DNA of 64,000 bases, taken from positions 372,001 to 436,000 of the forward strand of contig NZ_FQUT01000003.1 of assembly GCF_900129245.1 (NCBI RefSeq), given 5' to 3'. Every line of letters starts with the position of its first letter. The stretch's first letter is position 1. Origin of the DNA: Chryseobacterium arachidis. Lineage in GTDB: Bacteria > Bacteroidota > Bacteroidia > Flavobacteriales > Weeksellaceae. The notes under the pieces are model-generated. The model did not search any database and was not told where the DNA came from. It saw only the letters and a list, made by a program, of their open reading frames with translations. Shown here piece after piece: positions 51,251-64,000 of the stretch. A program made the translations under genes and the position numbers.

Positions 51251-51256
51251 AACGAG

Positions 51257-51328
51257 AGCCAACTACGGGACTTGAACCCGTGACCTCTTCCTTACCAAGG
51301 AAGCACTCTACCGCTGAGCTAAGTCGGC
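51257..51328 (-). tRNA. tRNA-Thr (GGT)
   Basis: The minus strand has acceptor GCCGACT/AGTTGGC (one G-T), anticodon arm CTTCC-TTGGTAA-GGAAG with anticodon GGT, and T arm with GGGTTCAAGTCCC. It is the last gene of the tRNA cluster. Confidence 0.93.
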
Positions 51329-51371
51329 CTGAAACAAAAAAATCACACTAAATATAGAGTGATTTTTGTTG

Positions 51372-51444
51372 AGCGGAAGACGAGGGTCGAACTCGCGACA
51401 TTCAGCTTGGAAGGCTGACGCTCTACCAACTGAGCTACTTCCGC
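51372..51444 (-). tRNA. tRNA-Gly (TCC), copy 1
   Basis: Acceptor GCGGAAG/CTTCCGC, anticodon arm TCAGC-CTTCCAA-GCTGA with anticodon TCC. The gene is identical to the one at 51795-51867. Confidence 0.93.
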
Positions 51445-51532
51445 AATTTTGTTTCCAAAATTATTGGTAAACGCTTTGCAAAACTAAGAAAATTTCTTGA
51501 ATCCTGCAAGTTTTTTTTTCTAATATAAAACG

Positions 51533-51613
51533 TGGGGAGAGCAGGATTCGAACCTACGAAGCCGAAGCAACTGAGTTACAGTCAGTCCCATTTAGCCACT
51601 CTGGAATCTCCCC
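51533..51613 (-). tRNA. tRNA-Tyr (GTA), copy 1
   Basis: Acceptor GGGGAGA/TCTCCCC, anticodon arm ACTGA-CTGTAAC-TCAGT with anticodon GTA, and the long variable arm of class II tRNAs. It is identical to the gene at 51955-52035. Confidence 0.93.
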
Positions 51614-51631
51614 AGATATTTTATATTAATG

Positions 51632-51705
51632 AGCTTCCAGAGGGATTCGAACCCACGACCCCGAGATTACAAATCACGTGCTCTGGCCAACTGAGCTATG
51701 GAAGC
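51632..51705 (-). tRNA. tRNA-Thr (TGT), copy 1
   Basis: Acceptor GCTTCCA/TGGAAGC, anticodon loop TTTGTAA with anticodon TGT. The anticodon stem has one T-T mismatch (CGTGA/TCTCG), present in both copies. Confidence 0.9.
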
Positions 51706-51794
51706 GTTTTAATATTATAGGCTGAAAGCTTTTGAGAAAATTCTACTCTGAGCTTTTCAGTAGTTAAAAAAATACTCTACTGAGTATTTTATTG

Positions 51795-51867
51795 AGCGGA
51801 AGACGAGGGTCGAACTCGCGACATTCAGCTTGGAAGGCTGACGCTCTACCAACTGAGCTACTTCCGC
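51795..51867 (-). tRNA. tRNA-Gly (TCC), copy 2
   Basis: Same sequence as copy 1: acceptor GCGGAAG/CTTCCGC, anticodon TCC in CTTCCAA. Confidence 0.93.
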
Positions 51868-51954
51868 AATTTTGTTTCCAAAATCATTGGTAACGGTTTG
51901 CAAATCTAAGAAGAATTCTTGAAACCTGCAAGTCTTTTTTTAATAAAAAAACTG

Positions 51955-52035
51955 TGGGGAGAGCAGGATTCGAACCTACGAAGCCGAAGCAACTGAGTTA
52001 CAGTCAGTCCCATTTAGCCACTCTGGAATCTCCCC
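51955..52035 (-). tRNA. tRNA-Tyr (GTA), copy 2
   Basis: Same sequence as copy 1: acceptor GGGGAGA/TCTCCCC, anticodon GTA in CTGTAAC, long variable arm. Confidence 0.93.
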
Positions 52036-52055
52036 AGGTTTTTTATCTTAAAATG

Positions 52056-52129
52056 AGCTTCCAGAGGGATTCGAACCCACGACCCCGAGATTACAAATCA
52101 CGTGCTCTGGCCAACTGAGCTATGGAAGC
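52056..52129 (-). tRNA. tRNA-Thr (TGT), copy 2
   Basis: Same sequence as copy 1: acceptor GCTTCCA/TGGAAGC, anticodon TGT in TTTGTAA. It is the first gene of the tRNA cluster, about 110 bases after hpf in the same direction. Confidence 0.9.
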
Positions 52130-57848: not shown

Positions 57849-58247
57849 GGGGTTGACTGGTTTCGACAGCAAGGTCAGTGGATAAGTAAGCATGCAGAGA
57901 ACCGTAGCGCGATCTCTATAATCCCTTGCTACAAAATTTTAACTGGCAACGAAGAGTTCGCTCTTGCAGCTTAATATCGAAGTATAGTAGATCAAGCGTT
58001 TCCCTGAAGACTTTAGTAAGGGAGCAAGATATTCCACAAATGCTCTGTTCTGCGGCATTTGATCCTGGGATATAGGAATGCGGAAATAAGTCTCGTTTCA
58101 CTTCGCGACGAGATCGAAAACCTCAGAAGATAAGCTGGAAGTTGGGTGTCTGCTCTCTGCTTCCAGTCGAAAACCAATAGTAGAATAAGCATGTAGAAAG
58201 CTTATGTATTGCTTGTTTGGACGAGGGTTCGAATCCCTCCAACTCCA
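57849..58247 (+). ncRNA. ssrA: transfer-messenger RNA (tmRNA)
   Basis: The 5' end GGGGTTGACTGGTTTCGAC and the 3' end with GGGTTCGAATCCC and CAACTCCA form the tRNA-like domain. About 90 bases in, a short reading frame ends GAA GAG TTC GCT CTT GCA GCT TAA, giving a tag that ends GNEEFALAA (frame 57945-57974). It rescues stalled ribosomes with SmpB. The length of about 399 nt is normal. Confidence 0.97.
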
Positions 58248-58250
58248 CTA

Positions 58251-61775: not shown

Positions 61776-61941
61776 TTTTTTATCCGCTAATGGCCTTGCA
61801 GTACCGAAAGTCTGTAATTTGTTTTCCTAATAAACTCTTGGACACTTAAAAGAGCTAATTATCGTATTACTAAATAGGTTTTATAGTGTCCCAAATTATT
61901 TATATTCCAAAAAATTTTCATTTTTAACAAAACAAAAACGG

Positions 61942-62251
61942 GGCTGTCTCAAAAGTGAGGCAGCTTTTTTTTATGAAAAAGGTAAGCCTTGGCTGAAGTG
62001 TCAATATGTGGAACTTGTTTTTGCAGAGCTGAAACACAACAAAAATTTTAAACGCTTCATGCTTCTGGGAAAAAACAAAGTCGAAGTAGATATAGGCATA
62101 CTCGCTATTGCCCATAACATGAAAAAAATCAAAAAAGCAGCCTGAAACAGCCAGCTTTTTTGATTTTTTTTAATCCGCTCTTAAGACGATTGCATATGAA
62201 AGTTGATTTTCTAACGAACACAAAAAAAAGAGACTGCCTTTTGAGACAGCC
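61942..62251 (+). mobile_element. internally deleted IS1182-like element (about 310 bp)
   Basis: Perfect 14-base terminal inverted repeats, GGCTGTCTCAAAAG at 61942-61955 and its complement at 62238-62251, enclose only the 3' end of a transposase gene. The element is probably immobile alone, but a full copy elsewhere could move it. No clear target duplication was found. Confidence 0.75.
61972..62145 (+). pseudogene. transposase C-terminal remnant (IS1182-like)
   Basis: The frame reads VELVFAELKHNKNFKRF, LLGKNKVEVDIGILAIAHN and MKKIKKAA before a TGA at 62143. This resembles the end of DDE transposases of the IS1182/IS5 kind. There is no start codon, and the N-terminal and catalytic parts are missing. 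Confidence 0.75.
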
Positions 62252-62256
62252 TTATT

Positions 62257-62490
62257 TTATTCATTTATGAGATTAAAAAATTGTTCAAGGGTAATTTTTC
62301 TTGCTTTGCAAATTCTATACAGTGTTTCAACAGGAATTCTATATGTATTATCACTCTTTATTTTTCTTACGGTACTTTCTTCTATATCGTGACTTTTAGC
62401 AAACGAGTTCTGTGACTTATTTTCTTTAAGCCAAGGAATCAACCAATTTTTAGTTATATACGAACAGATTTTCTCGTTTATGTCAATCAT
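62257..62490 (-). CDS. small helix-turn-helix protein (77 aa)
   Basis: This 77-residue protein from ATG 62490 (MIDINEKICSYITKNW) holds an XRE-like helix-turn-helix: NSFAKSHDIEESTVRKIKSDNTYRIPVETLYRICKARKITLEQF in broken form. An ATG at 62514 is an alternative start. It ends 5 bases from the deleted IS element. A perfect palindrome lies about 30 bases upstream of its start, between it and the divergent RNA-guided module, and may be its operator. It could regulate the module, or be a passenger of the IS. Confidence 0.75.
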   Translation of the reverse strand: MIDINEKICSYITKNWLIPWLKENKSQNSFAKSHDIEESTVRKIKSDNTYRIPVETLYRICKARKITLEQFFNLINE

Positions 62491-62520
62491 ATAACAAAAG
62501 AAATATTTTGACATTGAAAT

Positions 62521-62542: not shown

Positions 62543-62561
62543 TAAATTATTTTTATTATAT

Positions 62562-62592
62562 TTGGAATAAATTATTTATAAAAGTAATTTTG
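62562..62592 (+). promoter_or_regulatory. promoter of the structured RNA/sigma/Cas12f-like operon
   Basis: TTG at 62562-62564, a 20-base spacer and TAATTTTG at 62585-62592 fit the phylum promoter. A second -7 element, TATATTTG, is at 62557-62564. The predicted RNA start is near 62597, just before the first stem of the structured RNA. Confidence 0.65.
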
Positions 62593-62596
62593 CGAT

Positions 62597-62830
62597 AGTT
62601 CAAAGAAATATAGAAGCTATTGCTTAGATTCTCGACTGGAAAACTGGCACTTTTCAAAAAGCAACGAGAGGATAAGTAAATGTGCCCACGACTTCGGCGT
62701 GGGCTCACTTATCGTTGCTTGGTATGCCAGTACCACCGGTCGGTAAGATGAGTTCCACGCCTTTCTTTTGGTGAAAATATAGTGAGTGAGTAATTTTCAA
62801 TGCTATAGCGAATTCATGTTATTAATCGAA
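62597..62830 (+). ncRNA. putative Cas12f-type guide RNA (scaffold plus guide)
   Basis: The strand folds into nested stems: CGACTGG (62633) with CCGGTCG (62736); ACTGGCA (62643) with TGCCAGT (62725); AAGCAAC (62659) with GTTGCTT (62714); GATAAGT (62671) with ACTTATC (62707); GCCCACG (62684) with CGTGGGC (62698) around ACTTCGG. After the outer stem comes CGGTAAGATG, similar from memory to the CGGTAAG segment of Cas12f tracrRNAs. A further stem TGAAAAT/ATTTTCA (62772, 62793) may be the joined repeat/anti-repeat. A guide could begin near 62808. It lies between a promoter and the sigma factor gene. The exact ends are uncertain. Confidence 0.65.
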
Positions 62831-62869
62831 GCAGTTCTTCAAGCGATAATCAGCTCAAATACACTGCTT

Positions 62870-63685
62870 ATGAAAAGAACAAACTCCTTACCCCGAATGC
62901 TTAACGAGCATCAGCTATATGAACTGCTGAAAAAAGGCAATCCTGAATCATTAGAATATATTCATTTCCGGTACAAAAGACTCCTTTTCTGGATTGGTAA
63001 ACAAATGCTTGACGATGATTTTGTCGTGGAAACACTTGTGCAGGATACATTTCTTAAACTCTGGTTACACCGTGATTCCATCGAAACTCCAAATCATATT
63101 CTTGGCTTTTTACGGTTTGTTCTGAAAAGAGACTGCATAACTTATTTCAATACTCCAAAAAATAAATTCGCACGCTTAACAGCTTCACTTGAAAGTTTTG
63201 AAAATTATCAGGATTATCTTATCGGATATGATCCTCTACAAGACAAAGAACAGCTACTTCAGCAGGAATCCGATCAAAAAAATTTTGATGAAGTCAATAA
63301 GGTCTTAAAGGTAATAAATCCCAAAAGAAAGCATCTGATTGAGCTATGCCTTCAGTATGGCTTTAGATACAAACCTATTTCAGAAGCAATGGGAAGCAGT
63401 GTCAAAGATATCAGCAATGAGGTAAGTAGGGCAATAGATGATTTAAGAAACATCCTAAAGGAAAAAGGTAATGACAAGCCACCTATTAAATCGCAGAGAA
63501 ATGAGGCTCATCAAGATGAACTCAGCAGTCAACAAATTGAAATTTTAAACAGAAGATTTGAACAGAAATCTTCATTTGCTGTAATTGCAAGAGAACTCAA
63601 ACTTTCTGAAAAAGAAGTGCATCAAGAGTTTCTTTGTGCCTATCAATATTTACAGAATCGAAACAACTCTGAAATACCTGTTTGA
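62870..63685 (+). CDS. ECF-like sigma factor with additional C-terminal HTH, linked to Cas12f-like gene
   Basis: This 271-residue protein from ATG 62870 (MKRTNSLPRMLNEHQLYELL) has a sigma region 2 (about residues 18-85: YIHFRYKRLLFWIGKQ, VQDTFLKLWLHRDS) and a sigma region 4 (about 140-200: INPKRKHLIELCLQYGF, ISEAMGSSVKDISNEV). A tail of about 70 residues then holds another helix-turn-helix (FAVIARELKLSEKEVHQEF). Common ECF factors end after region 4. The start at 62786 was rejected because those codons overlap the structured RNA. It is one base from the Cas12f-like gene. No anti-sigma gene is seen. Confidence 0.8.
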   Translation: MKRTNSLPRMLNEHQLYELLKKGNPESLEYIHFRYKRLLFWIGKQMLDDDFVVETLVQDTFLKLWLHRDSIETPNHILGFLRFVLKRDCITYFNTPKNKFARLTASLESFENYQDYLIGYDPLQDKEQLLQQESDQKNFDEVNKVLKVINPKRKHLIELCLQYGFRYKPISEAMGSSVKDISNEVSRAIDDLRNILKEKGNDKPPIKSQRNEAHQDELSSQQIEILNRRFEQKSSFAVIARELKLSEKEVHQEFLCAYQYLQNRNNSEIPV

Positions 63686-63686
63686 T

Positions 63687-64000
63687 ATGGAAAAATCTAC
63701 GATGACACTTACCCGAAAAATTCAGTTGTTGGTCGATGTTCCATCTGATCAAAAAAATGAAATGTGGGAAAAACTTTATCGTTATCAAAACCGTTGTTTC
63801 CGAGCGGCAAACTTAATCGCTTCCCATTTGTATGTTCAGGAAATGATTAAGGATTTTTTTTACCTTACGGAAGAAATACAGTATAAGTTAGCTGATGAAA
63901 AAAAAGATGAGATGGGAATGTTTAACCGTTCGAAAACTGGCACTACGGCACGAATGGTATTTGACCGTTTCAAAGGAGAAATCCCTACAGACATTTTGGG
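63687..64000 (+). CDS. Cas12f/TnpB-like RNA-guided protein, N-terminal 104 residues (3' end outside window)
   Basis: The frame is open to the window edge. It starts MEKSTMTLTRKIQLLVDVP, continues with helical wedge/recognition-type sequence (YRYQNRCFRAANLIASHLY) and contains RMVFDRFKGEIPTDIL. This order matches what I know of Cas12f (type V-F) proteins. The start is one base after the sigma gene stop (ATG 63702 is an alternative). The RuvC catalytic residues and zinc finger are beyond the window, so activity cannot be judged. No cas1, cas2 or CRISPR array is visible. An ordinary TnpB is possible but less likely, given the guide-like RNA and sigma gene. Confidence 0.72.
   Translation, partial: MEKSTMTLTRKIQLLVDVPSDQKNEMWEKLYRYQNRCFRAANLIASHLYVQEMIKDFFYLTEEIQYKLADEKKDEMGMFNRSKTGTTARMVFDRFKGEIPTDIL

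Follow-up and report, generated by a model that had tools for sequence, protein, structure and literature searches.

A dCas12f-sigma factor module of Chryseobacterium and its predicted RNA guidance to a multi-copy structured element

We find at the end of the window, the whole 64,000-nucleotide stretch that was analysed (C14:372001-436000 of a 4.95-Mb draft genome), a locus that we read, with a probability of roughly 0.7, as an RNA-guided module: a nuclease-dead Cas12f (dCas12f) and a sigma factor would be led by a guide RNA (gRNA) encoded downstream to the DNA of a structured RNA element, which lies before the module itself and before susC-susD, and would likely start transcription there. Homology places the module, as a new member, among the recently described dCas12f-sigma systems for RNA-guided transcription. 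The 2025 preprints of Hoffmann et al. and Xiao et al. reportedly describe dCas12f-RpoE complexes for RNA-guided transcription, and the PDB entries 9n9c, 9n9m, 9n9o and 9n9q are, we take it, the complexes of these preprints.

Results

Layout of the locus

The window edge cuts through the dCas12f gene. Read past the edge, the gene order is a divergent small HTH gene, a promoter, a structured RNA, a sigma factor (271 aa) and a Cas12f-like protein (364 aa), followed 3' by a short conserved non-coding piece and then by the neighbourhood of a DRT2-like reverse transcriptase. The features are given below in window coordinates, unless a contig is named.

62257..62514, minus strand: small HTH_26 (XRE-like) protein of 85 aa, divergent from the RNA element (Pfam HTH_26, E=2e-7)
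62561..62592, plus strand: promoter of the structured RNA, TTTG at 62561-62564 and TAATTTTG at 62585-62592, 20-base spacing (from the sequence)
62605..62762, plus strand: structured RNA element of a multi-copy family (model R1 match at L003:4606-4763, 175 bits, a score for a copy that was itself in the model's alignment)
62684..62690, plus strand: 5' arm of the apical hairpin, GCCCACG (fold, sequence)
62696..62707, plus strand: 3' arm of the apical hairpin, GGCGTGGGCTCA; within the module's own leader, the predicted DNA target (own-genome search)
62735..62750, plus strand: predicted RNA-guided transcription start region
62749..62761, plus strand: 3' block TGAGTTCCACGCC, complementary to 62696-62707, alternative helix (pairing counts)
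62870..63685, plus strand: ECF-type sigma factor of 271 aa with two region-4-like domains (9n9q_C; Pfam)
63687..64000, plus strand: first 314 bases of dCas12f, which runs on to C14:436781 and has 364 aa in total (9n9c_A match)
C14:436792-436870, past the window edge, 3' of the dCas12f stop codon: predicted guide RNA (conserved scaffold and guide)

The spacing of TTTG and TAATTTTG fits the -33/-7 boxes of the Bacteroidota promoter consensus, and similar boxes are present in related loci; a promoter 5' of the structured RNA had been proposed by the sequence-only reading. In the cross-locus comparison the own-locus copies L001, L002, L005 and L072 were set aside and identical rows merged (71 to 54). 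Small divergent ORFs, several of them HTH-like, also adjoin other element copies in the contexts that we read. In many copies, L013 included, the -33 and -7 boxes flank a palindrome of the GTTAC...GTAAC type, possibly the operator of a shared regulator. A small inverted repeat, AAGCAG...CTGCTT (62829-62869), abuts the sigma start codon here and in many loci and may serve translation control.

The surroundings contain several further features. Directly before the module (61940-62257) lies what is likely the remnant of an IS, recognised by eye from its inverted ends (GGCTGTCTC ... GAGACAGCC). The reverse transcriptase 3' of the guide RNA (L003:6937-10167) is of the DRT2-like defence type and has an RTasWYL-YodC-like neighbour. 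The window also holds a tRNA cluster with a repeated Gly-Tyr-Thr order (51256-52129) and a tmRNA (57849-58248).

A predicted nuclease-dead Cas12f follows a sigma factor

A Cas12f-like N-terminus had been noted one base after the sigma gene, and reading past 64000 bears this out: the sigma ORF ends at 63685, the next ORF starts at 63687, and its 364-aa product is Cas12f-like throughout, matching PDB 9n9c_A ("Nuclease-deactivated Cas12f") over its full length (1-364, E=1.4e-158), with a much weaker next-best Cas12f chain (9nzo_B, E=5.8e-38). RuvC columns were defined by aligning the window protein to 9nzo_B and inspected in 59 full-length homologues, which come from 54 of 61 loci and, in five cases, from another family, with 7 broken dCas12f frames excluded. 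The RuvC-I Asp column holds Ser in 55/59 homologues and Asp in none; the RuvC-II Glu column holds Lys in 52/59 and Glu in none; and all 59 proteins end where RuvC-III would start, leaving no room for it. By its sequence, the protein is a Cas12f homologue with a presumably inactive RuvC, all three catalytic acids being lost.

The sigma factor matches 9n9q_C ("RpoE") with residues 17-264 (E=4e-82). Pfam assigns it Sigma70_r2, Sigma70_r4_2 and a second Sigma70_r4 at the C-terminus, and this second region-4-like domain is what had looked like an unusual C-terminus. We predict that it is the partner of dCas12f. Because of the full-length matches to 9n9c_A and 9n9q_C and the loss of the RuvC acids, the class assigned earlier, nuclease-dead Cas12f with an ECF sigma factor, is right.

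Related systems share some of these traits. The window protein belongs by sequence to the family of the Cas12f/TnpB nucleases (PDB 9nzo; NF040570); unlike them, it is without the RuvC acids and the C-terminal part. It scores 45 bits against the TnpB family NF040570, whose cut-off is 100, and has none of the intact RuvC residues of an IS200/IS605-type TnpB transposon. Neither the array nor the adaptation genes of type V-F CRISPR-Cas immunity were found: a Pfam scan of the seven other L003 proteins gave no cas1 or cas2, and L003:4000-9000 holds no direct repeats of at least 20 bases within 120 bases, in line with what had been seen in the letters alone. dCas12f, with a few fragments counted in, occurs in 45/173 genomes of the genus and in 23/395 genomes drawn from the order, five of the 23 in another family at 59-65% identity.

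A predicted guide RNA lies 3' of dCas12f

Across 61 loci, the sequence behind the dCas12f stop codon is conserved, with L018 lacking the guide end. Its scaffold reads GAGGGTGCTTGTACACCC...GGTGAGG...CTCACTAAATACT...AGTATATACAAC, forms three short hairpins and is usually followed by GGCGTGGG, which starts the guide in 59/64 gRNA copies from these loci. When the 173 genus genomes were searched at up to three mismatches, the scaffold pattern was found in 43/45 dCas12f genomes (not in G077 and G082) and in 0/128 others, the reversed control gave 0, and the own genome held a single copy. A gRNA-like piece with a 3' guide stands behind dCas12f in 60/61 loci; a first pattern had found none in L018, L056, L069 and L071, and a wider one missed L018 only. 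We predict from this conservation that the piece is a guide RNA with its guide at the 3' end. Searched against Rfam, the guide RNA stretches gave no match, and one sub-threshold match fell elsewhere in L160.

Some loci carry two to four tandem gRNA copies with other guides. L139, L143, L154, L147 and L148 have three to four tandem guide RNAs 3' of dCas12f, with differing guides, and in L143 the repeat takes in a copy of the dCas12f gene end.

The upstream RNA is a widespread structured family

Is the upstream RNA itself the guide RNA, as the sequence-only reading had it? That 62597-62830 is highly structured stands: its fold has -71.8 kcal/mol, where shuffled sequences average -53.7 (z -3.8; 0/200 shuffles as good), and its family shows covariation. 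We built a covariance model from 25 sequences, reduced from 49 by leaving out near-identical ones and five without a recognisable 3' block (L044, L027, L056, L051, L057). It finds the RNA in 152/173 genus genomes, with 1-8 copies each: in 44/45 genomes with dCas12f and in 108/128 without. Outside the genus, it matches all 10 dCas12f genomes tried. The RNA is structured, has its own promoter and stands 5' of sigma and dCas12f in most loci, as a guide RNA might; however, its presence in those 108 dCas12f-less genomes and the gRNA-like piece behind dCas12f in 60/61 loci make a guide function very improbable. Of the RNA-guided transcription module proposed earlier, the class of system (9n9c_A, 9n9q_C, RuvC loss) is thus retained and the RNA assignment withdrawn. 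The upstream RNA is probably a separate multi-copy family of leader or switch RNAs.

Candidate guides inside the upstream RNA were also tried and rejected. Three candidates at its 3' end, taken from two copies and searched in the own genome at up to three mismatches, had no matches besides themselves other than the C22 copy and a single site on C17, both at three mismatches, and controls were equal in one search. The variable part after CCAGTACC is a covarying stem.

The nested structure of the element is paired in 95.2% over 70 distinct copies, with 250 double-change cells versus 62 in shuffles. Pairs with a double change number 11 versus 9.3 in shuffles (reached by 20/500) and further pair types 33 versus 34.6 (reached by 442/500); two of five covariation measures are not clearly above shuffles, and the alignments used (A4, A3, A2) were fitted to the nested model. 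Two model pairs fail in 63 and 33 of the 70 rows, the one failing in 63 lying in an outer helix. Read from the copies, the typical apical hairpin is CACG, a bulged A, C-YNNG-G and CGTG.

A second helix, formed by 62696-62707 with 62749-62761, is mutually exclusive with the apical hairpin. It is paired in 99.0% of 839 cells, versus 29-62% in slid controls, and shows 13 double-change cells versus 3.8 in shuffles, which fall in just 2/12 pairs, a count reached by 118/500 shuffles; in an alignment that covers Flavobacteriaceae as well, double changes occur in five pairs, a count equalled in 2/500 shuffles. Because this mutually exclusive helix is conserved, the element is a probable switch. Rows from dCas12f-less genomes make up 43/80 of the first of these two alignments, so the alternative helix is independent of dCas12f; the 60 orphan copies added to the alignments were the first among the matches listed, not a random draw.

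With its conserved, mutually exclusive helices, the leader-like element recalls RNAs of the riboswitch or attenuator type; unlike these, it has no Rfam 15 match at the thresholds used. No family matched it in 16 stretches holding 15 different copies, and weak matches lay outside the element. We found no description of it in Rfam 15 or in a literature search of limited depth. Structured 5' regions have been reported for Flavobacterium psychrophilum transcripts (PMC9723704), none of them identifiable with the element in the part of that source available to us.

The guide equals the predicted switching strand of the element

The guide GGCGTGGGCTCT equals the strand common to both helices, the 3' arm of the apical hairpin. 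In the 4.95 Mb of the own genome this 12-mer occurs exactly only in the gRNA itself and in the element copy on C12. It matches the arm of the window element in 11/12 bases and that of the diverged C22 element in 10/12; two other one-mismatch sites, C14:219383 and C25:590525, fall in long open frames. At up to two mismatches the own genome holds 67 matches versus 74 for the control, and with no excess only the position of the best match is informative. The C12 arm lies ~430 nt upstream of a susC-susD-peptidase S9 operon, and a guide target upstream of susC-susD is predicted both here and in genome G465 (below).

Several features were noted beside these copies. Adjoining the C12 element are genes for an AAA_21 (AbiEii/AriA-like) ATPase and a DUF4276 protein (L004:11769-13632). 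The strongly diverged C22 copy is a third one (L104:1347-1530; z -6.2), and the 75-aa ORF behind it is Imm_superinfect-like, just below the Pfam cut-off.

Since the guide equals the shared strand, it could pair with either partner, and the gRNA might act in trans on RNA, pairing with the transcript of the element at its 5' arm or its 3' block and flipping the switch, with DNA targeting secondary. That the guide is precisely the strand common to two conserved alternative helices favours such a role. Against it, Cas12f proteins act on DNA, and the target-adjacent motif of dCas12f-sigma systems is a 5'-G, which the G before GCGTGGGC at three own-genome sites fits and the A before the G465 match does not. 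The G465 guide, moreover, matches a susC-proximal leader and not the element. We therefore consider action on RNA quite unlikely and retain DNA of the element as the predicted target.

Guide and element change together in some genomes

Across loci, 35/62 gRNAs find their best match in the linked element and at no more than two places, and 41/62 do so without the place limit, versus 23/1240 shuffled guides, a control counted more loosely. For 27/62 gRNAs the best match lies outside the element or in more than two places, and guides of the GGCGTGAGC class show mismatches to their linked element. The element is absent from the stretch in 11/68 loci by two methods, two of the 11 being cut upstream; thus, self-targeting is not universal.

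The guide might resemble the element through descent only, having been copied from it, with natural targets elsewhere. The arm is conserved in 29/36 copies from dCas12f genomes (counting L302 of G077, which has only a dCas12f remnant) and in 30/43 from dCas12f-less ones (Fisher p=0.31). It is about equally conserved with and without dCas12f, so in the genus it is not kept for dCas12f, and we rejected the idea of an arm maintained for that protein. Conservation without dCas12f and the shortness of the matches (10-12 nt) would both suit mere descent. However, within 4.95 Mb the 12-mer recurs exactly just once beyond the gRNA, at a site in an element, and guide and arm show matched changes in G511 and G487, which makes mere descent improbable; we keep the element as the predicted target.

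These matched changes are seen in two cases. (i) In G511, GGCGTGGGCTTA is found in both guide and element, changed together; for this genome's second guide, the stretches read hold no convincing target. (ii) In G487, a guide with GCGTGACAT matches the one element of that genome with that arm: the second of four guides (GCGTGACATC) fits the one element with arm GCGTGACATT, the 3' block of which is changed to match too. Guide 3 matches 47 and 50 nt ahead of two susC start codons, distances at which a leader would hardly fit. Convincing targets of guides 1 and 4 are absent from the stretches read, and none of the genome's own guides matches the linked element over more than 7 nt. A further 15-nt match of guide 3 lies on the other (minus) strand near a divergent HTH gene (L160) and is unexplained.

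In G465, 15 nt that agree exactly with the guide AAAAGCCTTCCCGCG lie 84 nt ahead of a susC start codon, and this susC is itself preceded by an element; the search covered one 15-kb stretch, picked for holding that element. The stretch read around the G465 sigma gene shows no element before it.

Genes behind orphan elements

Among 20 orphan elements, which were the first among the matches listed and not a random draw, eight precede susC relatives of 46-95% identity. One of the 20, L200, is followed by a gene of 433 aa and, at 24% identity, a weak relative of susC. A ~175-aa protein (MKKNRTDF...-like, grouped by eye) lies behind 11 of the 20 (L195-L214; for example L195:4582-5145); the one member scanned had no Pfam match, and the protein is a possible second regulon member. 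Genes upstream of orphan elements differ from copy to copy. Element stretches of ~330 bases are identical in four genomes (L039, L042, L043, L046), which suggests recent horizontal spread of the module.

Discussion

What would the module do at the element? In the reading that we favour, dCas12f would bind the gRNA from the piece 3' of its gene as guide, the complex of dCas12f, gRNA and sigma would bind the DNA of the element's 3' arm, forming an R-loop, and sigma would recruit RNA polymerase. According to a preprint on dCas12f-sigma systems, RNA-guided transcription is said to start some tens of bases past the target. Here the start would fall between the stem and the 3' block, downstream of the element's hairpin. 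An RNA-guided transcript without the shared strand cannot form the switch, and a transcript from this new start would skip the RNA switch that the arm forms with its two alternative partners. With its own element copy in front, the module would activate itself, and one short guide would act on the whole leader family. A conserved guide makes sense as the address of an entire leader family.

Alternatively, element-bound dCas12f could be a roadblock that represses the leader rather than activating genes. The target lies ~100 nt inside the predicted transcribed region of the RNA, and repression is what TldR proteins, nuclease-dead relatives of TnpB, exert: according to the part of PMC13418256 available to us, TldR is a nuclease-dead TnpB repressor (Wiegand 2024) and represses a flagellin gene. 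Judged from the proteins, the window module resembles TldR in being a probably exapted RNA-guided DNA binder without nuclease activity; unlike TldR as described in that part of PMC13418256, it has a dedicated sigma factor. This sigma factor, encoded alongside dCas12f, has its match in the RpoE of a solved complex, which speaks against a roadblock because a repressor would need none. We regard repression as the main function as unlikely, and repression and activation could coexist.

The favoured reading, activation at the element, places the window module close to the dCas12f-RpoE complexes, with which it shares a homologous dCas12f and sigma factor, the loss of catalytic residues, an adjoining gRNA-like piece and guide matches upstream of susC. 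Its own feature is that a near-invariant short guide matches a multi-copy structured RNA, often before its own operon. More tentatively, at somewhat less than even odds, the guide may copy the switching strand of a widespread RNA-switch family so that the module overrides every member, the uptake operons and its own gene alike, by starting transcription beyond the switch, while the tandem gRNAs of Flavobacteriaceae may address single switches through their differing arms.

For Chryseobacterium, these results predict a natural RNA-guided activator, a natural CRISPRa, and name concrete targets for it, the module's own operon and a susC-susD-peptidase operon. They also uncover a structured RNA family that is widespread, lies before outer-membrane uptake operons and has an alternative helix built in. 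Since the guide copies the switching strand of this element, the module would join two layers of RNA control in one regulon.
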